Assembly: GCF_019200975.1 (NCBI RefSeq)
Contig: NZ_JAHTMR010000013.1
Coordinates: forward strand, 62,001-126,000
Reading direction: 5' to 3'
Length of the DNA: 64,000 nucleotides
DNA from: Pseudomonas sp. PD9R
GTDB taxonomy: Bacteria > Pseudomonadota > Gammaproteobacteria > Pseudomonadales > Pseudomonadaceae
A program made the translations under genes and the position numbers. Shown here in pieces: positions 15,752 to 63,300 of the stretch (positions are counted from its first letter, which is position 1; every line of letters starts with the position of its first letter). Under the pieces are notes generated by a model. The model saw only the letters and a program-made list of their open reading frames with translations, was not told the origin of the DNA and made no database searches.

Positions 15752-17548
15752 TTAAAGTGAAAACAACTCCGCCGGCAGGCGCATCAGGCAATCACTACCC
15801 GCCTCGATGGCTGCCCGATGAGCGGCAGTGCGTGGCAACAAACGCTTGAAGTAAAACTCGCTCGTCGCCAGTTTGGCCGTGCAGAAATCCGCATCGCCGT
15901 TGCCGGCCTCCAGCTGTGCCTGGGCCACCAACGCCATGCGCAACCACAAATAGCCAAGGATGATGTAGCCGCTGTACATCAGGTAATCCACAGAGGCGGC
16001 ACCCACTTCATCAGGGTTTTTCATCGCAGCCACGCCGATCCTGGTGGTCAACTCGCCCCATTGCTGGTTCAGGCCATTGAGTTGTGCCACATAGCTTGCC
16101 AACTGCGGATGCTCGGCGTTCGTCGCGCAAAACTTGTGGACGATTTTTGTGAATCCCTTCAGGAGTTTGCCTTGGCTGCCGAGAACTTTGCGCCCCAGCA
16201 AGTCCAGCGCCTGAATGCCGTTGGTGCCTTCGTAGATAGGCGCGATGCGGCAATCACGCACCAGTTGCTCCATACCCCATTCACGAATGAAACCGTGGCC
16301 ACCGAACACTTGCATGCCGAGGTTGGTCACTTCCAGGCCTGTGTCGGTCATGAAAGCCTTGCAGATCGGGGTCAGGAACGCCAAGAGGTCTTCGGCATCC
16401 TGGCGCGCCGCCTCATCTGCACTCAGGTGTGCAGCGTCCAGCAACTGCGCCGTGAAGTAGGTCAGCGCCCGATTGCCTTCGTTGAAGGCCTTCATGGTCA
16501 GCAGCATTCGCCGCACATCCGGATGAACGATGATCGGGTCGGCAACTTTCTCCGGTGCTTTCGGGCCCGTCAATGCGCGCATCTGCAAGCGGTCGTTGGC
16601 GTACTTGATCGCGCCCTGGAAACTCGCTTCTCCCAGACACAAACCCTGCATGCCCGTGCCCAGGCGCGCGTGGTTCATCATGGTGAACATGCAGTTCAGG
16701 CCCTTGTTCGCCTCGCCGATCAGCAAGCCTTTGGCTTCGTCGAAATTCAGCACGCAGGTGGCCGACGCCTTGATGCCCATTTTGTGTTCGATAGAGCCGC
16801 AGGTCACACCATTGCGCTCGCCGGCCTCACCTGAGGCATCGGGCAGGAATTTAGGCACGATGAACAGCGAAATGCCCTTGGTCCCGGCTGGCGCGTCCGG
16901 CAATTTCGCCAGCACCAGGTGAATGATGTTGTCGCTCATGTCGTGCTCACCGGCGGAGATGAAAATCTTGCTGCCGGAGATCGCGTAACTGCCATCAGCC
17001 TGTGGCACGGCGCGGGTCTTGATGATGCCCAGGTCGGTGCCGCAATGGGCTTCTGTCAGGCACATGGTGCCGGTCCATTGGCCGGCGGTGAGTTTGCTCA
17101 GGTACGTCTGTTTTTGCTCTTCAGTGCCATGGGCATGGATGGCCGACATGGCCCCGTGGGTCAGGCCGGGGTACATGCCCCAGGAGGTGTTGCTGGACGC
17201 GATCATCTCGCTGATGACCAAGCCCAGAGAGCTTGGCAATCCCTGACCTCCGTAGGCTGGATCCGCCGCCAGACCATGCCAGCCGCCCTCCACATATTGT
17301 GCGAAAGCCTGCTTGAAGCCTGTCGGCGTTGTGACCACGCCATTGTCGAAATGGCAGCCCTCTTCGTCGCCGATACGGTTAAGAGGCGCCAGCACGTTCT
17401 CGCAGAATTTCGCACCTTCTTCGAGGATCGCACTGACCATGTCCGGGCTGGCGTCAGTAGCACCCAGCGCAGCGTAGTTGCTGTGAAAGTCGAAGACGTG
17501 GTCGATCAGAAAGCGCATGTCGCGCAGGGGAGCTTTGTACTCGGGCAT
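15752..17548 (-). CDS. Acyl-CoA dehydrogenase (paralogue 2)
   Basis: A 598-residue enzyme, MPEYKAPLRDMRFLIDHVF, paralogous to the genes at 13785 and 24261. It keeps MCLTEAHCGTDLG and the catalytic [18 protein letters not shown] motif. I choose ATG 17548 over ATG 17554 because GGAG is seven bases from the former and almost touches the latter. It is closer to paralogue 1 than to paralogue 3 (shared [16 protein letters not shown]-like and KVLGSQG-like segments). Probable role: acyl-CoA oxidation in fatty-acid degradation. Confidence 0.9.
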   Translation of the reverse strand: MPEYKAPLRDMRFLIDHVFDFHSNYAALGATDASPDMVSAILEEGAKFCENVLAPLNRIGDEEGCHFDNGVVTTPTGFKQAFAQYVEGGWHGLAADPAYGGQGLPSSLGLVISEMIASSNTSWGMYPGLTHGAMSAIHAHGTEEQKQTYLSKLTAGQWTGTMCLTEAHCGTDLGIIKTRAVPQADGSYAISGSKIFISAGEHDMSDNIIHLVLAKLPDAPAGTKGISLFIVPKFLPDASGEAGERNGVTCGSIEHKMGIKASATCVLNFDEAKGLLIGEANKGLNCMFTMMNHARLGTGMQGLCLGEASFQGAIKYANDRLQMRALTGPKAPEKVADPIIVHPDVRRMLLTMKAFNEGNRALTYFTAQLLDAAHLSADEAARQDAEDLLAFLTPICKAFMTDTGLEVTNLGMQVFGGHGFIREWGMEQLVRDCRIAPIYEGTNGIQALDLLGRKVLGSQGKLLKGFTKIVHKFCATNAEHPQLASYVAQLNGLNQQWGELTTRIGVAAMKNPDEVGAASVDYLMYSGYIILGYLWLRMALVAQAQLEAGNGDADFCTAKLATSEFYFKRLLPRTAAHRAAIEAGSDCLMRLPAELFSL

Positions 17549-17633
17549 GGTCATTCTCCGTCAGCAGATTGCTCAAATCTACTGCCGCCGACCACGCCTC
17601 ACAATCACAGTCCAGACGCTGAATGCGCCATCA

Positions 17634-19154: not shown

Positions 19155-21296
19155 TCAGATGTCGTTGTTGAACGGCTGCAGCGGTCCTTCCTGGGGCCCG
19201 CGCCCCTCCGCACCGATCGGTTTGAGCTGGATGTTGGCGTCCAGCGCCTGGCGGGTGGTGATCTTCGGACTGACCGGTTTCTGTGTCACTGCGTTTTCAT
19301 CACCGACCGCGCCTTGCGGCAGCACCAGCGATGGGTGATCGAACGGCGCCTGTTCCCATGCGACGCGCGGGTCGGTCAAACCCACCTCCATGAATTTGAC
19401 CAAAGCATCCTGTTCATCGGGCGTCAGGTTCAGGTTGGTCATGTCCGGATCGAGGTTCGAGCCGTTGTGCTGATTAACCGAAGGGTGCTCGAAACCGCTG
19501 GTGTTGCTCGCGTCCTCGCCACGCCGGTCGCCGCCACGGTTGTAAAACTCGATGACCTGCTTGAGCGTCGCACGGCTGCCGTTGTGGAAATACGGCCCGG
19601 TCAGCGCGATGTTACGCAGCGTCGGGGTCTTGAAGGCACCATCGACCGAGTCGCGGAAATTGACGTTGGGCTTGAGCGTCGCATCGCAGGGAATCGCCGC
19701 ACTCAACGGTGCTTCGAAAGTGCAGACATCGACATCCAGTGGGTCAGGTATCTTCCCGCCTTGTAGCTGCGTGTTGTACTCACGGGCAAAGGACAATGGA
19801 TTGCCCCACGCGTCCGCACCACCGAGCGCCAGGTCTTCCGACGTCGGGCGCACACCGGTGTTATAGAAGCCGTTGTCGTAGAGCGTGGTCAGGTTGTCAG
19901 CCATCACCATACGTTCGATGCGCTCACGTGGATGGAACAGCAGCCGGCTGCCAGCGTTAGTCAGCTCTGCGCCACCGTGGCAACTGATGCATTTGCCTTT
20001 GCCCAGGAACAAGTTCATGCCCTGAACCTGCTGCTCGTTCATGGCCGTGTGATCACCCTGCAAATAGGCATCCAGCGGCGCCTGATCCGAGATCAGCGTG
20101 GACTCATACATCTGAATCGCCAGCCCGAAGAACAGCGGGAAGTTAGCCTCCATCTGAGTGTAGGGAGCGCCGCCCAGGGAAACCTGCTGCGTGGCGTTCC
20201 ACAGCCGTGGCTGGAAGGCATTTTTGATCAGTTCGCGGTAGGTGGGCCTGCGCGCACCCGATACCGGAGCGAGCACAGAGTCGGTGGATGAGATCCGCTG
20301 CTGCTTGAGCATCAGGGTGTCGAGCATGCGCCGGCCGATGTCGGCAAACGTGCGCCCGCCGCAGGACATTTCAACGGGGCTGCCCGGAGGCCCCACGGCT
20401 TGCGAGGCCGCCGAGGCATCGTTGAGTGCCAGCCGCACTTTGACCGCTACGCCGCTGCGATCGCTGGTGACGAAAATCCCGGCGTCGGGGTCGCGGTTGC
20501 CGAAAGGCGAGAAGCCGTTGAACACGTTGTTGGCCCGGCCATCCCAGAAGTTGCGCACATTGAATGCCGCATTGATCACCGACGGCGCGTTGCGCCCGGT
20601 ACTGCGACGGACATTGATGCCGCCGACCTGGAAGACACCGTCTGGTTGCTGTATGCATTTGTCGAAACGTGGTTGATTTGGTTTGACGAAGTTGGCGTCG
20701 AACACGCCCTGGGAACCGATGACGTCGTCGCTCGAATAAAGAATCGGCGAATTGCGATTCAGCGGGTCAGCCAGCACATGGGTGGGGAAATCGGCTTTCT
20801 TCAGCAGGTAGTTCGGACCGCCCTTGCCCCCGGACTTGGTCGTATAGGTAGGCACGTCGCCCGGGACATCGGACGCCACGAAGGGCTTGTTGAAGATCGA
20901 CGTGACGTTGGCATTGGTGTTCGCCTGGCCTGGGTTGATCTGGTTGGTGGTGCGGTGATCAACCCCGGCGTGGTAATGGCAGGACGCGCAGGCAGTGGAG
21001 CTGTCGCTGCCGATTTCCATGTCCCAGAACAGCGCTTTACCCAACAAGATAGCGGCGCCGCGATTGAGTACGTAGTCGGTCATCAAATCGACCTTGCGCC
21101 CGCCTTCGGTCCCAGAGGGATCGGGCGGGGTCATGCCGCGCAACGACTGCAGGCTGGGCACATCCGGTATAGGTGTGACAACTTCTGGCACGTCAGCGGC
21201 GACAGCACTCTTGCAAGCGAGACTAACTGCAATCAGGCTGCCCGCGATCACGCCGGCCAAGCGGATAGTACGAATGATGCTCAAGGGCTTAACCAT
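19155..21296 (-). CDS. Secreted di-haem cytochrome c peroxidase-like protein
   Basis: A 713-residue exported protein with an N-terminal signal sequence (cleavage probably after AVA, residue 33). Two c-type haem sites are visible: CASCH at residues 103-107 and CISCH at 436-440. Length and layout fit the large MauG/cytochrome c peroxidase superfamily rather than the usual ~330-residue peroxidase; a long insert separates the haem domains. MauG relatives oxidise protein side chains, and RoxA relatives cleave polyisoprene, so the true substrate is open. A divergent gene for an exported cysteine-rich protein lies 1.1 kb away and may encode its partner. It should act in the periplasm or outside the cell. 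Confidence 0.85.
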   Translation of the reverse strand: MVKPLSIIRTIRLAGVIAGSLIAVSLACKSAVAADVPEVVTPIPDVPSLQSLRGMTPPDPSGTEGGRKVDLMTDYVLNRGAAILLGKALFWDMEIGSDSSTACASCHYHAGVDHRTTNQINPGQANTNANVTSIFNKPFVASDVPGDVPTYTTKSGGKGGPNYLLKKADFPTHVLADPLNRNSPILYSSDDVIGSQGVFDANFVKPNQPRFDKCIQQPDGVFQVGGINVRRSTGRNAPSVINAAFNVRNFWDGRANNVFNGFSPFGNRDPDAGIFVTSDRSGVAVKVRLALNDASAASQAVGPPGSPVEMSCGGRTFADIGRRMLDTLMLKQQRISSTDSVLAPVSGARRPTYRELIKNAFQPRLWNATQQVSLGGAPYTQMEANFPLFFGLAIQMYESTLISDQAPLDAYLQGDHTAMNEQQVQGMNLFLGKGKCISCHGGAELTNAGSRLLFHPRERIERMVMADNLTTLYDNGFYNTGVRPTSEDLALGGADAWGNPLSFAREYNTQLQGGKIPDPLDVDVCTFEAPLSAAIPCDATLKPNVNFRDSVDGAFKTPTLRNIALTGPYFHNGSRATLKQVIEFYNRGGDRRGEDASNTSGFEHPSVNQHNGSNLDPDMTNLNLTPDEQDALVKFMEVGLTDPRVAWEQAPFDHPSLVLPQGAVGDENAVTQKPVSPKITTRQALDANIQLKPIGAEGRGPQEGPLQPFNNDI

Positions 21297-21648
21297 GATG
21301 ACATTCTCGATTCAGTACGGAGCAGCCAGACTCCGGAGTTGTCCTGTTACGAGATTAACTCTTGGCCATGGACCTTGTTGCTCGCATCATTAATCACACC
21401 AACTCTAAATTGGCAGAGGCGAGAAGAAGCCGCGCTGGCAAAGTACTCTCTTGGCTCAGGCTTAATTAAAACACTGCGTGCTCGCACCGTGGGCGATGCT
21501 TATCTCAACTCTAGCTGTAACAAAAGATTTCATCAGTAAAAATTCAATGTTTTTTATTGCATGCACTATTGATAAAAACTGCCAAATGAAAATGTCACGC
21601 AACAAATCAAATCGACCAATGCATCTCTTCCTCAATTTCGGCAAAGCT

Positions 21649-21673
21649 CCCCCATTACTGGGGGGAATTCCCC
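21649..21673 (-). promoter_or_regulatory. G/C-run element upstream of the di-haem gene
   Basis: Read on the minus strand it is GGGG-AATT-CCCCCC-AGTAAT-GGGGG; it contains the overlapping palindromes GGGGAATTCCCC and CCCCCA-TTAC-TGGGGG. It ends 353 bases before the di-haem start codon, matching the spacing of its partner element before the divergent gene. Confidence 0.5.
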
Positions 21674-22037
21674 ATAAGCATCTGTCACCCAGCAATCAAC
21701 ATGCACGTAACTAAATGATTTAGAACTGTTTATTATTGAACAATGATTATTCCAGCAAGCTGGCAAAGTAATTGCTAATTCATACAACAGGGACAACGTG
21801 TATTAACAAAACCCAGTACATACCAGAACTATTAAAGAGCAGGAGCAAAAAACAAATACAGATTTTCCATTCGTATGCAGGTTGTACTGCGCCAGCTATT
21901 GCTTTTATTTAATACTGAATTAAAAACAGTAATTTTGCATATTTTCAACACGCCCGCTTGCAAAGCGTTTCCAGTCAGAGTACATATAAACAACACTTCT
22001 CATTAAGTAACCCGAACCACATTAAAACCCCTAACAC

Positions 22038-22064
22038 GGGTATATATCCCCCCCTACATTGGTG
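22038..22064 (+). promoter_or_regulatory. G/C-run element upstream of the exported-protein gene
   Basis: GGG-TATATAT-CCCCCCC-TACATT-GGTG resembles the element at 21649-21673 in the same orientation relative to its gene and at nearly the same distance (358 bases) from the start codon. It lies about 90-115 bases before the sigma-54-like promoter, where enhancer sites for activators usually lie. Confidence 0.5.
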
Positions 22065-22149: not shown

Positions 22150-22168
22150 TCAGGCACGACAACTGCTA
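22150..22168 (+). promoter_or_regulatory. Candidate sigma-54 promoter
   Basis: AGGCACGACAACTGCTA has GG at 22153-22154 and GC at 22165-22166 with exactly 10 bases between, matching TGGCACG-N4-TTGCT at all positions but two. Transcription would begin near 22178 and give a 240-base leader to the start at 22422. Confidence 0.5.
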
Positions 22169-22421
22169 AGTACGCCTCAGGCTCAAGGAAATGTCTCTCG
22201 CGATTGTGTCCCTAACCGGCCAACACATCGCGGATCGGATGCATCTGAAGGGTGAGAGGCGATCGCGTACTGACCGTACAGAATCTCAACCACTTATCTC
22301 TTTGGATCGAGCCCACTCGACGCTCACGCCTTTTTTGTCTTTCTTGCGCGGGATTCAGCGCATCAGCAGGCGTGCGAGTCGATTGGCCGGCAACTGGTTC
22401 TGCATGATTTTGGAGAGATCC

Positions 22422-24176
22422 ATGAGCTTATCCACACTAGCAAAAACGCTCGCTATACCACCGTTCCACAAGCGAACCATTGCCTTGTCAGGTCGCCACG
22501 GGCTGCTGGCCTGTGCCGCTGTCATCGCGTTGGCCTTTGGAGGTGCAGGCCCTGCAATGGCTAAAAACGGGACGGCCAAACCACCCGTCAAGGGTGCAAC
22601 ATCGCCCTTCTCGACGCCCACGCTACCCGATCCGGTATTCGCCAACCCGAATGCGGTTCATGGCTTCGACGTCACCGGGTTTATCCAGAACATGACCTTG
22701 GACCCCACCAATGCTAACTGCCCAGGCACCACTGACCCTGGTCGTTACGGGGGCACCGTCCAACTGAACGGCGTCACGATAACCGTCCCTTGCAACACGA
22801 TTATGCAAATGCCGGCCAACACCCTGAGCTGGGCGGACTTTGTCCACGGTGGCTCACTGGCACTCAACAAAACACCACCGGCTTATCCTTCGTTCGAGAT
22901 CCATGTGGTGGGCAACTTTGTCGCCGACAAAAAAATTGCCGGGCTGATTTTTGTCTCGCAGCAATCAGCCAATGCTGGCGCCGGCTACATCTCCCGAATC
23001 GACTACACCAACGGCAACATCGAAGTTGACAGCGGCAACCCTTCGTTACCGACGATCATCCAGATCAACGATCCGAACGGACGCTTTGGCCGCCCACAAA
23101 GCCCCGACCCTCGCTTCTCCGTCGATGACGCCAACCCCACCATTCATGCCGCCACCGGTTATCCGATGTGTGTACCGCGCACCATCTCCGGGGACGACGC
23201 ACTCTGCCCGCAGAAAAACCGGCCTAAAGTGGTTACCGCGACGACCACCAACAATTGCCGTAACTTCAGCCAGGCTGGCGTGACACTGCCGGCCAGCGGA
23301 GAGCTTTCGGCGCCGGCGATCGGTCAGGTCTTTTGCAGCCAGTACGTCATGAAGCGGTTCAGCGATGCGACACGCACCGCGACAGACCCTGACCCGACGC
23401 AACAGGCTCCATTCGAAGTTGGCGACTTCATCAGCTACTCCGGCACACTGTTCAAATCGGCGACGTCAGGCAGCCCTGACTTCATCTCCGCGCACACCAT
23501 CGAGGCCAATGTCGGGATCTACACCCAGCCGGGTACTCAGCCCAGCTATCTGTCTATCGGCGAATTTGGTCTGGGCACTGCTGACCCTGCGGCGGTCGCT
23601 ATCGGCGGTGCAGCTCAAGAAACACAGGACCGGATTTTCCTTGAAGCCTCGACCACCGACATCAAGACCCCGGTCGATATTTATCTGATCGATGTCAATC
23701 CATCGACGGGCGTTCAGACCAATCGCTGGGTGACCCCCTTTGAGATGACCGGTGAATGCGACCCTTCCACAGGCCTGGCCGCCAGCTGCCTGGGAGCCCC
23801 GGGCGGCATCACGACCCAAAACCTGGGTGCCCAGCCACAACGTGCCAGGCTTCGGGCAGCCAAGGCCCCGACCGGACTGCTCAGCCAGCCGACGCGTACC
23901 TTGCGGGTCATTGCGCGTTCCCTGTGTGCGCCACAAACGTCTCTGTCCCAGACCGCCGTGGACAATTGCATCCAAAACGCCAGCCGGCTGACCGTAGCCA
24001 ACGGTTTGACTGCAGGACAATACGTGGCACCGGTGTTCGAATTCATCTTCCCGGAAGGCGTCAAACCCGGCGATCCAATGGTTCCGAACGACTTCTGGCA
24101 CCTGCCGTTCATACGCAATGGAGAAGGCACAAGCACCCCGACTGGAGTCGGCCCTCTGGAACCGACGCCATGGTAA
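22422..24176 (+). CDS. Exported cysteine-rich protein of unknown function
   Basis: A 584-residue protein that I do not place in a named family. It has a long basic N-region and a hydrophobic core ending in GGAGPAMA, so a signal peptidase I site near residue 46 is likely. The mature part has ten cysteines, an even number that suggests disulfides outside the cytoplasm, and no membrane segment. Recognisable blocks are INDPNGRFGRPQSPDPRF, SVDDANPTIHAATGYPMC and a C-terminal FEFIFPEGVKPGD. I have a weak memory of similar blocks in uncharacterised fungal secreted proteins. ATG 22422 has GGAGA seven bases upstream; the frame is open back to 22191. It is divergent from the di-haem gene and followed by a terminator. 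Confidence 0.75.
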   Translation: MSLSTLAKTLAIPPFHKRTIALSGRHGLLACAAVIALAFGGAGPAMAKNGTAKPPVKGATSPFSTPTLPDPVFANPNAVHGFDVTGFIQNMTLDPTNANCPGTTDPGRYGGTVQLNGVTITVPCNTIMQMPANTLSWADFVHGGSLALNKTPPAYPSFEIHVVGNFVADKKIAGLIFVSQQSANAGAGYISRIDYTNGNIEVDSGNPSLPTIIQINDPNGRFGRPQSPDPRFSVDDANPTIHAATGYPMCVPRTISGDDALCPQKNRPKVVTATTTNNCRNFSQAGVTLPASGELSAPAIGQVFCSQYVMKRFSDATRTATDPDPTQQAPFEVGDFISYSGTLFKSATSGSPDFISAHTIEANVGIYTQPGTQPSYLSIGEFGLGTADPAAVAIGGAAQETQDRIFLEASTTDIKTPVDIYLIDVNPSTGVQTNRWVTPFEMTGECDPSTGLAASCLGAPGGITTQNLGAQPQRARLRAAKAPTGLLSQPTRTLRVIARSLCAPQTSLSQTAVDNCIQNASRLTVANGLTAGQYVAPVFEFIFPEGVKPGDPMVPNDFWHLPFIRNGEGTSTPTGVGPLEPTPW

Positions 24177-24260: not shown

Positions 24261-26066
24261 TTAATAGCCCAGATCGAAGTTTTCTTCTTTCATGTCCATC
24301 AGGTTGTTGGCGCCCGACAGCATGGTTGCAACGTGAGTGCGTGTACGCGGCAGGATGCGCTGGAAGTAGAAACGCGCAGTCTGCAGCTTGGCGGTATAAA
24401 ACGCTTCTTCCGAGGTGCCAGCAGCCAGTTTTTCGGCCGCCAGGCGCGCCATGTCAGCCCAGAAGTAGGCCAGGCAGGCGTAACCGGAGTACATCAGGTA
24501 GTCCACGGAGGCCGCGCCGACTTCTTCGCGATCTTTCATGGCGGCCATACCGACCTTCATGGTCAACTCGCCCCATTCCTTGTTCAGTGCAGCCAGCGGT
24601 GCGACGAACTCCTGAACGGCTTCGTTGCCTTCGTTGGTCTGGCAGAACTTGTGAACGATCTTGGTGAAGCCTTTCAAAGCCTCGCCTTGAGTCATCAGCA
24701 CTTTACGGCCCAGCAGGTCGAGTGCCTGGATACCGGTGGTGCCTTCGTACAGCATCGAAATGCGGCTGTCGCGAACGTTCTGCTCCATGCCCCATTCGGC
24801 GATGAAGCCGTGGCCGCCGTAGATCTGCACGCCGTGGTTAGCCGACTCGAAGCCGACCTCGGTCATGAAGGCCTTGGCGATTGGGGTCATGAATGCCAAC
24901 AGAGCGTCGGCTTTCTTCTTCTCTTCTTCGTCCACCCCGTACTTGACGATGTCGACTTGCTTGGCGGTGAAGTAAACCATCGCACGGTTGCCTTCGGCGA
25001 ACGCCTTCATGGTCAACAGCATGCGACGTACATCAGGGTGCACGATGATCGGGTCAGCGGCTTTGTCCGGCGCTTTGGGGCCAGTCAGCGAACGCATTTG
25101 CAAGCGATCACGAGCGTATTTCAGGCCGCCCTGGAAGCCGATTTCGGCGTGGGCCAAACCTTGCAGTGCGGTACCCAGGCGTGCGGTGTTCATGAAGGTG
25201 AACATGCAGTTCAGGCCTTTGTTCGCCGGGCCGATCAGGAAACCAGTGGCCGCGTCGAAGTTCATCACGCAAGTGGCGTTGCCGTGGATGCCCATCTTGT
25301 GTTCCAGGGAACCACAGGACACCGCGTTGCGCGCGCCGATCGAACCGTCTTCGTTCGGCATGAACTTTGGAACGATGAACAGCGAGATACCTTTGGTGCC
25401 AGCCGGTGCATCCGGCAGGCGGGCCAGCACGATGTGGACGATGTTGTCGGCCATGTCGTGTTCACCGGCCGAGATGAAGATTTTGGTGCCGGAGACTTTG
25501 TAGGAACCGTCGGCCTGAGGCTCGGCCTTGGTGCGCAGCATGCCCAGGTCGGTGCCGCAGTGAGGCTCGGTCAGGCACATGGTGCCGGTCCATTCGCCGG
25601 AAACCAGTTTGGTCAGGTAGGCGTGCTGCTGCTCTGGCGTGCCGTGCTCGGAGATGGTGTTCATCGCGCCATGCGACAGGCCCGGGTACATGCCCCACGA
25701 CCAGTTGGACTCGCCAACCATTTCGCTCACAGCCAGACCCAGGGATTCCGGCAGGCCTTGGCCACCGTGCTCCACGTCATGGGCCAGGCTTGGCCAGCCG
25801 CCTTCGACGAATTGTTTGTAGGCTTCTTTGAAACCGGTCGGGGTTTTAACGCCGGACTCGCTCCAGGTGCAGCCTTCGATGTCGCCCACGCGGTTCAGCG
25901 GAGCCAGTACCTGCTCACAAAACTTGGCGCCTTCTTCGAGAATGGCGTCAACCATGTCCGGAGTTGCGTCTGCGCAAGCCGGAAGGCTCTGATAATGCGC
26001 TTCGTAGCCGAGCAGTTCGTCACGAACGAAGCGAATATCACGCAAGGGGGCCTTGTAGTCAGGCAT
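24261..26066 (-). CDS. Acyl-CoA dehydrogenase (paralogue 1)
   Basis: A 601-residue FAD-dependent acyl-CoA dehydrogenase, [19 protein letters not shown], with [14 protein letters not shown] and the catalytic region [18 protein letters not shown]. It converts acyl-CoA to trans-2-enoyl-CoA and passes electrons to ETF. By position next to the bio genes it matches P. aeruginosa FadE1 (PA0506, from memory). Tandem CAAAC/GTTTG palindromes 62-88 bases before its start look like PsrA operators, suggesting control by fatty acyl signals. It is separated from the other two paralogues by a 6.5 kb block with unrelated genes. Confidence 0.92.
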
Positions 26067-60312: not shown

Positions 60313-63300
60313 TTAGATGTTCTGGCGATCACCCTTTGGATCGAAGAACACCGAAGAAACGATTTCCGCTTCGATCACGCTGCCATCGGCCAGCGGTGCG
60401 AACACGCGCTCACCCATACGCTGCAACCCGCCCTTGACCACGCCCATGGCAAACGAATAGCCGAGGGAGTTGTGCGCGTAGCTGGAGGTCACGTGGCCGA
60501 CCATGGTCATCGGGATCGCTTGCTTGGTGTTGAACACCAGTTGCGCACCTTCCGGCAGCCATTGGGTCGGATCGATCGGCTTCAGGCCAACCAGTTGCTT
60601 ACGTTGATCACGCACGCAGTCTTCACGGTTCATGCCGCGCTGGCCGATCCACGAAAACGGTTTGGTGCGACCGACACACCAGCCCATGTTCAGGTCGTCC
60701 GGAGTCATCGAGCCGTCAGTGTCCTGGCCGACGATGATGAAGCCCTTCTCGGCCCGCAGTACGTGCATGGTTTCGGTGCCGTACGGGGTCAGGTTGTACT
60801 TCTTGCCCGCGTCGACGATTTTTTCCAGCACGCCCATGGCGTAGTCGGCTTGCACGTTGACTTCGTACGACAGTTCACCGGTAAACGAGATCCGGAACAC
60901 CCGCGCCGGCACACCGCCCACCAGACCTTCTTTCCAGGTCATGAATGGGAACGCTTCATTGCTCAGGTCAATGTCGGTGACCTCGCTGAGCAGCTTGCGG
61001 CTGTTCGGTCCGGACAGGGTCATGGTCGCCCAGTGATCCGTCACGGAAGTGAAGTACACCTTCAGGTCTGGCCATTCGGTCTGTTGGTAGATTTCCAGCC
61101 ATTGCAGCACACGTGCAGCGCCGCCGGTGGTGGTGGTCATCACGAAATGGTTGTCGGCCAGGCAGGCAGTTACGCCGTCGTCGAACACCATGCCGTCTTC
61201 TTTACACATCAGGCCGTAACGCGCCTTGCCCACATCGAGTTTGGTCCAGGCGTTGGTGTAGATGCGGTTGAGGAACTCACGCGCGTCCGGGCCCTGGATG
61301 TCGATTTTGCCCAGGGTCGAAGCGTCCAGCAGGCCGACGCTGTCGCGCACGGCTTTGCATTCGCGCTTGACTGCGGCATGCAGGTCTTCGCCGCCTTTCG
61401 GGAAGTACCAAGGACGTTTCCACTGACCGACGTCTTCAAACTCGGCACCGTTTTTTACGTGCCAGTGATGCAGTGCGGTGAAACGTACAGGCTCGAAGAT
61501 GTGCCCACAGTGACGACCGGCCACAGCGCCGAACGTCACCGGCGTGTAGTTCGGGCGGAACATGGTGGTGCCCATCTGCGGGATGGTCACGTTCAGCGAA
61601 CGGGCGGCGATGGCCAGACCGTTGACGTTACCGAGCTTGCCCTGATCGGTGCCAAAGCCCAGTGCGGTATAGCGCTTGACGTGCTCGACCGACTCGAAGC
61701 CTTCGCGGGTTGCCAGTTCGATGGCCGCTGCGGTGACGTCGTTTTGCAGGTCGACGAATTGCTTCGGTGCCCGTGCAGTGTTCTTTTCATGCGGCACCTG
61801 GAACAGCGCCAGCGTCGGCTCTTCCAGACGCGCCAGCGCTTTCGGCAACGTACCTTCGACGACACTGAAACCGGCTTCGCTGGCAGCGCGAGCGCCGCCT
61901 TCAAAGCCATCGGCCAGGGAATCGCCGAGGCCGTAGACGCCGTTGATACCACCGACGCATACGCGTTTCTGCGGTGCTTCGCCCGGTACGAAACCGAGGA
62001 TGTCTTCACGCCAGGTGGGCTTGCCGCCGAGGTGCGAGGCCAAGTGAACCACCGGGCTGTAACCGCCGGAGCTGGCGACGATGTCGCAGTCGAGCCATTC
62101 GCCAGGGCTGGTGACTTTGTGTCCTTTGACATCAATTGCGGCAACGCGGGCAGCCGTTACATGCTTGCTGCCACGGGCCTCGATCACGGCACTGCCGGTG
62201 AGGATGCGGATGCCTTTGGCGCGGGCTTCTTCCACCAGCGCACCACGCGGGTTGCTGCGGGCGTCAGCGATGGCCACCACTTGCAGGCTGGCGTCGAGCC
62301 AATCCAGGGCAACGCGGTAGGCGTGGTCGTTGTTGGTCGACAGCACAAGCTTTTTGCCCGGTGCCACGCCATAACGGCGCACGTAAGTCGAAACAGCGCC
62401 AGCGAGCATGTTGCCCGGCACGTCGTTGTTGCCGTAAACCAGTGGACGCTCGTGAGCGCCCGTCGCCAGCACTACACGCTTGGCGCGAACCCGGTGGATA
62501 CGCTGACGGACCTGGCCAATCGGGGCGCGGTCACCGAGGTGATCGGTCAGGCGCTCGTGAATGGTCAGGAAGTTATGGTCGTGGTAGCCGTTGACGGTGG
62601 CGCGCGGCAACAGCAGCACGTCAGGAGTGTCTTTGAGCTCGGCAATCACGCTGGCGACCCATTCGGCGGCAGGCTTGCCGTCGAGGCTTTCGCGGGAGTC
62701 GAGCAGGCTGCCGCCGAACTCTTCCTGCTCATCGGCCAGGATGACGCGAGCACCGCTGCGCGCAGCCGCCAGTGCAGCGGCCAGGCCTGCCGGGCCACCG
62801 CCGACGATCAGCACGTCGCAGTGTTGGTTCATGTAGTCGTAGGTGTCCGGATCGTTCTCGGTCGGCGAGCGGCCAAGACCGGCAGCCTTACGAATGTACT
62901 TCTCGTAAGTCATCCAGAACGATTGCGGGTACATGAAGGTTTTGTAGTAGAAGCCCGGCGGCATCAGCTTGCCGCCGACCTTGCCGAGAATCCCCATCAT
63001 GTCGTTGTTCACGCTCGGCCAGCCGTTGGTGCTGGTGGCGACCAAACCTTGATACAGCGCTTGTTGCGTGGCGCGTACGTTCGGGATTTGCGTGGCTTCG
63101 GTGGCGCCGATTTGCAGCACCGCGTTCGGCTCTTCGGCACCGGCGGCGAAGATGCCACGCGGACGAGAATATTTGAAGCTGCGACCGATGATGTCGACAC
63201 CGTTGGCCAGCAGTGCAGCGGCCAGGGAATCGCCTTCAAAGCCTTTGTAGCTCTGGCCGTTGAAGGTGAAGCTCAAGACTTTGTTGCGGTCGATCCGTCC

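Follow-up and report, generated by a model that had tools for sequence, protein, structure and literature searches.

The gap between two divergent genes of Pseudomonas sp. PD9R carries two elements built of G and C runs, and the locus raises the question of which regulator these elements serve and which gene they act upon. We analyzed a 64,000-nucleotide stretch (the window), positions 62001 to 126000 of contig C5 in this 6.88-Mb genome, and, within it, the 1125-bp gap (G+C content, 0.44) between cyt on the left (19155 to 21296, minus strand) and hyp on the right (22422 to 24176, plus strand). An earlier note on this DNA had described the elements as matching and symmetrically placed, pointing to one regulator that controls both genes.

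The left-hand gene encodes a di-haem peroxidase/MauG-like protein. It matches PF03150 (E = 8.9e-25) and has a weak RoxA-like segment, features shared with the di-haem cytochrome c peroxidase/MauG/RoxA family, and its PDB relatives are di-haem peroxidases and MauG. However, its scores fall well short of the NCBIfam cut-offs for MauG and MbnH and, at 713 aa, it is longer than the listed PDB chains (308 to 477 aa). The right-hand gene encodes a protein of 584 aa with an apparent signal peptide. Its start, ATG 22422, is retained in the aligned relatives, whereas a longer open reading frame from 22191 is not; given this start, the distances of 353 and 358 bases previously reported between the elements and the start codons are right. 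Family scans run on the longer, 661-aa reading frame gave no Pfam or NCBIfam match for hyp, no PDB sequence relative was found up to an E value of 1, and the structure prediction had a mean pLDDT of 27.2. The closest named match, in a one-genome-per-species collection, was from Pseudomonas fluorescens H24 (94%). Searches with the gap itself returned no plasmid match and no Rfam family. Two acyl-CoA dehydrogenase paralogs lie on either side of the locus, both on the minus strand (15752 to 17554 and 24261 to 26066).

Both elements can be read directly from the sequence, exactly as they had been described. Element 1 (21649 to 21674, plus strand) contains the core CCCC-ATTACT-GGGG, of the form CCCC-N6-GGGG, and then CCCCA; on the minus strand, from 21673 down to 21649, it reads GGGG-AATT-CCCCCC-AGTAAT-GGGGG. 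Element 2 (22028 to 22064, plus strand) has two cores, CCCC-TAACAC-GGG (22028 to 22040) and CCCC-TACATT-GGTG (22051 to 22064), and the plus-strand stretch noted earlier, 22038 to 22064, reads GGG-TATATAT-CCCCCCC-TACATT-GGTG. Common to both elements is a CCC(C)-N6-GG core. Because this core is palindromic, the shared relative orientation emphasized in the earlier note is correct as read but says little. The near-equal distances to the two genes hold in the window but not in general, the core lying 367 bp from cyt in the window, 317 bp in L097 and 202 bp in L117.

That such elements are unlikely to arise by chance was borne out: two or more separate CCCC-N6-GG-N-G places occurred in 15 of 20,000 dinucleotide shuffles of the gap, and at least one in 711 of 20,000. 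Relatives that keep both genes, the place where conservation was to be sought, have conserved both elements. Element 1 is kept in four relatives, in an alignment that has diverged around both elements. By modal identity over five genomes, the level of element 1 was reached by 3 of 190 local windows and that of element 2 by 1 of 320, the element itself included in each count. When identity to the window was scored across the whole gap, element 2 stood out (matched or bettered by 27 of 1033 windows) and element 1 was unremarkable (by 216 of 1035), because the window's GGGGGGAATT differs from the relatives' GGGTGTCATT. The form found in the relatives, GGGTGTCATTCCCCA, is that of the mcoA enhancer of the window's own genome. 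Thus, both elements are real, conserved and unlikely by chance.

Their number is unremarkable. The exact core CCCC-N6-GGGG occurs 36 times genome-wide, compared to 30 times for the reversed control, and is therefore not enriched; with one mismatch allowed, the window holds fewer copies than its shuffles do (17 versus 39.4). Counts of the bare core per genome do not separate 30 genomes that have MnxR, the response regulator discussed below (24 to 61), from 20 that lack it (18 to 67). It is location, not number, that sets these cores apart. A genome search with the bare element was too unspecific to be of use, giving 87 matches on both strands, mostly within genes where inspected.

We next considered the sequence downstream of each element and looked for GG at -24 and GC at -12 with 10 bases between them, set in TGGCA..TTGC. 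A conserved site of this kind, TGGCAAAGTAATTGCT, lies at 21761 to 21776 on the plus strand; it fits the sigma54 consensus, with a transcription start expected near 21787. Its GG-N10-GC is present in 11/11 genomes of the window's arrangement (defined below), and it reached a matrix score of 20.9 without being among the training sites of the matrix. A second conserved site on the plus strand, AGGCACGACAACTGCT (22152 to 22167, start expected near 22178), keeps GG-N10-GC and deviates from the consensus at two positions. Each element lies approximately 95 to 105 bp upstream of its sigma54-type site, on the same (plus) strand, and would be the enhancer of that promoter: element 1 of the one at 21761 and element 2 of the one at 22152. 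Joint core and sigma54 places in the gap number two on the plus strand and none on the minus strand, and at least two were seen in 1 of 5000 shuffles. Since both are on the plus strand, both modules point to hyp. The idea of symmetric switches, with the same promoter class facing each gene from an element of its own, was therefore not supported in the window's lineage: both sigma54-type sites run toward hyp, and none was found toward cyt. The product of the first promoter would be either a long hyp leader or a short separate transcript. A short non-coding transcript is possible from 21787 to 22038 in the window and from the matching stretch in six genomes without hyp.

Toward cyt, the sigma54 matrix found nothing convincing in the 11 genomes of the window's arrangement, the best value per locus ranging from 0.1 to 8.8. 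In the other arrangement, scores toward cyt were 17.4 to 19.7 in six loci, with a matrix whose training included three cyt sites of that arrangement and left out the element-1 sites. What does face cyt in the window is a block TGAAAT..TTTTGTTACAGCTA (21505 to 21545, minus strand), present in the upstream sequences of 11/11 genomes and in the alignment, approximately 110 bp from element 1. It has no sigma54 match by the matrix and may be a cyt promoter of another class. A second sigma54-like stretch (21437 to 21452, plus strand) points away from cyt; it reads TGGCAAAGTACTCTCT in the window and TGGCGAAGTGCTCGCT in L097, L103 and L104.

The distances from core to sigma54 site cluster mostly at 71 to 73, 81 to 87, 91 to 96, 104 to 108 and 116 to 118 bp. 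When 77 pairs were reduced to 28 distinct family-by-spacing values, the observed 11-bp phase was reached by 4 of 20,000 uniform draws (8 for a 10.5-bp phase and 218 for a 10-bp phase, each of 20,000); after merging neighbors to 15 values, it was reached by 68 of 20,000 (10.5 bp, 214 of 20,000), draws that ignore kinship among related genomes, which are not independent observations. The result on all pairs is weaker than that on a single hand-chosen core per locus, yet it stands. The elements are thus inverted repeats upstream of a promoter, with a preferred face of the helix, and the phasing is what a looping activator bound on one helix face would give.

Which activator this might be is suggested by other places where the same module occurs. 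On contig C12 of the same genome, an mnxG match (409941 to 415760) lies with a YVTN-type/SCO1/SCO1/cytochrome/SurA-like operon, and matches to mnxS1, mcoA, SCO1, mnxS2 and mnxR lie at 438751 to 447305; these names were given by gene order and sizes as reported in the part of PMC11409713 covered here and by Pfam domains, not by sequence comparison with GB-1. A strict joint pattern, CCCC-N6-GGG-N71..101-TGGC-N7-TTGC, has exactly two matches in the whole genome, one at 21650 to 21775 of the window and one in the mcoA promoter (C12:440217-440342), both 126 bp long, and its reversed control has none. The exact core was found within 800 bp upstream of mnxG in 30/30 loci (one with 591 bp available), and the strict core and sigma54 pair within 230 bp of mnxG in 22 and absent in 8 of these 30. 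CCCC-N6-GGG with a sigma54 site precedes mcoA in 15/15 loci with the gene start in the sequence, namely, the window's genome and 14 of the 20 stretches fetched, the other 6 lacking the gene start. At mnxS1, the core is present in 15/16 loci, with little by the strict sigma54 pattern. The earlier proposal of one regulator is thus plausible, the core being common to these Mn(II)-oxidase promoters, but the part of it that had both genes under symmetric control was not supported in the window's lineage.

Across genomes, the joint pattern gave 98 matches in 29 genomes with MnxR (3.4 each) versus 30 in 20 genomes without it (1.5 each), counts that exclude G005, where one repeated sequence, probably a mobile element, accounts for most of 20 matches. 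The pattern is therefore enriched in, but not exclusive to, genomes that have MnxR. Among the 31 exact cores of the window's genome outside the Mn and window genes, 21 were examined (13 inside long reading frames and 8 between genes), and none had GG-N10-GC 68 to 120 bp downstream. A looser UAS-sigma54 pattern was set aside as too unspecific (73 matches versus 35 in the control).

Co-occurrence tells a similar story. Among 199 genomes of the genus, 61 have an MnxR ortholog (E up to 1e-150) and 59 have MnxG, all of them with MnxR. The cyt gene was found in 26 genomes, every one with MnxR (35/61 MnxR genomes are without it), and hyp in 7, all with both cyt and MnxR; the hypergeometric values, which disregard phylogeny, are 4.6e-16 for cyt and 2.0e-4 for hyp. 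There are two ARRANGEMENTS of cyt among the 26 genomes. In 15, a core with its sigma54 site is directed into cyt (15/15 loci). In the other 11, which share the window's arrangement, the sigma54 site faces away from cyt, and the strict element-1 core and sigma54 pair is present in 10/11. Six of these 11 have no hyp here; beyond the site there is nothing but the 3' end of a convergent acyl-CoA dehydrogenase gene, so the away-facing promoter has no evident coding target there. By the modules of the other arrangement and by its occurrence only alongside MnxR, cyt appears tied to the same regulator.

A second set, 35 hyp loci from a related-locus search, extended these results. Among 18 Pseudomonas loci with a divergent cyt, the element-1 pair was present in 17, a pair toward cyt in none and the strict element-2 pair in 12; the 6 that failed the strict element-2 pattern have kept the sigma54 site, and their core is worn. 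Where hyp is located elsewhere (L175 to L181), a pair was found in 7/7. Four loci (L160, L164, L179 and L181) come from genomes already used, two of them among the 18; with new loci only, the counts are 15/16 for the element-1 pair, 0/16 toward cyt, 10/16 for the strict element-2 pair and 5/5 for hyp elsewhere. L184 has the pair, L183 has none, and two loci are without upstream sequence. Exceptions in the first set were one of 11 element-1 loci and one of 7 hyp loci, both without a pair.

Outside Pseudomonas, the core and sigma54 pair was found in 0/6 hyp loci, and hyp relatives lie beside multicopper oxidases or di-haem proteins (L189, L191 and L194). Downstream of hyp, Methyloglobulus has an McoA homolog (52% identical across 862 aligned columns) and SCO1; in Nitrosomonas, a multicopper oxidase and SCO1 precede hyp. 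In a Desulfarculales bin, hyp is flanked by two di-haem proteins, one homologous to cyt along its length (36%), and a multicopper oxidase follows. A multicopper oxidase is thus near hyp in 3/6 of the non-Pseudomonas loci, of which all but L192 were inspected, and none was among the reading frames listed for Hyphomicrobium and Kineosporia. Independently of the motif, these neighborhoods support the view that hyp and cyt have a role in common with multicopper oxidases.

Taken with the motif, its conservation and spacing, the fit to the sigma54 consensus, co-occurrence and neighborhood, these results lead us to regard the elements as probable enhancers at which a sigma54 activator acts, the likeliest being MnxR, and the locus as a likely part of the Mn(II)-oxidation regulon. 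Dimers of the enhancer-binding protein would bind CCCC-N6-GGGG half-sites one helical turn apart and assemble approximately 95 to 105 bp from the -24/-12 elements (21761 and 22152), on their upstream side; DNA looping would then let them remodel sigma54-RNA polymerase. The proposed binder, MnxR, belongs to the MnxS1/MnxS2/MnxR system as its sigma54-type response regulator. Under this model, hyp would be directly controlled by the two modules, and cyt would belong to the same pathway, with a promoter in the window's lineage that may be of another class. MnxR binding, induction by manganese and the roles of the hyp and cyt proteins are what we infer from this pattern.

The assignment to MnxR draws on location, co-occurrence and domain type, and a different sigma54 activator might recognize this core as well. 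An enhancer-binding protein that merely has Mn-oxidation genes among its targets would fit the joint pattern seen in genomes without MnxR, and Pseudomonas is rich in such activators, a loose look giving more than 100 MnxR candidates in most of the genomes listed. We nevertheless consider it unlikely, as cyt and hyp occur only with MnxR and the core precedes mnxG, mcoA and the mnxS1-mcoA-mnxS2-mnxR cluster. A mirror-image arrangement, in which one regulator at each element drives each divergent gene from its own promoter, is in our view quite improbable. It would explain why both elements are conserved, the 15 other genomes do have the core and a sigma54 site facing cyt, and the conserved block approximately 110 bp from element 1 faces cyt as well; against this, no sigma54 site toward cyt was found in 11/11 genomes of the first set and no pair toward cyt in 18/18 loci of the second. 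The notion that the G/C runs arose by chance or are structural, as remnants of a terminator or a repeat would be, could appeal to the lack of genome-wide enrichment of the bare core. Given the shuffle tests, the conservation amid diverged sequence, the fixed spacing to the sigma54 sites and the lack of an Rfam match, we hold it to be very improbable.

The reading as enhancers for a sigma54 activator, MnxR for preference, is in good agreement with what has been reported in the parts of the literature covered. PmnxG and PmcoA of P. putida GB-1 are induced by Mn and predicted to be IHF-sigma54 promoters (PMC11930936), Mn oxidation is lost upon insertion into rpoN (PMC11409713), and control of mnxG and mcoA depends on the Mnx two-component pathway (PMC8218464, PMC9765421). 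At the loci examined, the mnxG and mcoA promoters have the same upstream core and downstream sigma54 element as the window modules, and element 1 with its promoter equals the mcoA module of the same genome in length. In contrast, the GB-1 promoter descriptions in the covered part of PMC11930936 give predicted IHF and sigma54 sites and name no G/C enhancer, and the window promoters serve genes other than mnxG and mcoA. The kind of promoter is already known; the motif and these members, like any published MnxR binding site, were not found in a partial literature search, outside which the main GB-1 regulator papers lay. Like NtrC-class regulators, MnxR has receiver, sigma54-interaction and Fis-type HTH domains, and the class likewise acts from inverted-repeat enhancers of the window type, approximately 70 to 120 bp upstream of GG-N10-GC and helically phased. 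The sites of NtrC and CbrB differ from the core CCCC-N6-GGGG. An enhancer motif whose position relative to sigma54 sites is fixed would make the regulon searchable and its regulator testable, and hyp and the di-haem enzyme would be two new candidate genes for Mn oxidation, a process for which the physiological purpose is said to be unknown (PMC11930936, covered in part) and in which c-type cytochrome maturation is already implicated (PMC11409713, likewise).

We tentatively extend this to a broader picture, possible rather than probable as a whole. The Mn-oxidation activator would read a CCCC-N6-GGGG code, helically phased to sigma54 sites, and would also drive partners not so far linked to Mn oxidation, namely hyp, a nearby type II secretion operon and the di-haem MauG/RoxA-like enzyme; the proximity of hyp to multicopper oxidases across other phyla and classes would be ancient, and in one case that of the di-haem enzyme too; and in one lineage the module would face away from cyt, yielding a conserved transcript without evident protein where hyp is absent. 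The secretion operon adjoins the mnxG operon and is a candidate further member of the regulon. At C12:421694-421843 (L054 5895-6044), the exact core occurs twice (CCCCAACAGTGGGG and CCCCGTTTTTGGGG), the copies lying 44 bp apart. Together with a loose sigma54 site, TGGCATGAAGTGTGCG, 83 bp past the center of the second core, they precede a receiver-type reading frame and a type II secretion ATPase gene. A similar core pair, 42 bp apart, is present in G047. Finally, a long REP-like inverted repeat lies between two core copies upstream of mnxG (C12:409680-409780; L053 13681-13781), and many relatives have this upstream region without the repeat.
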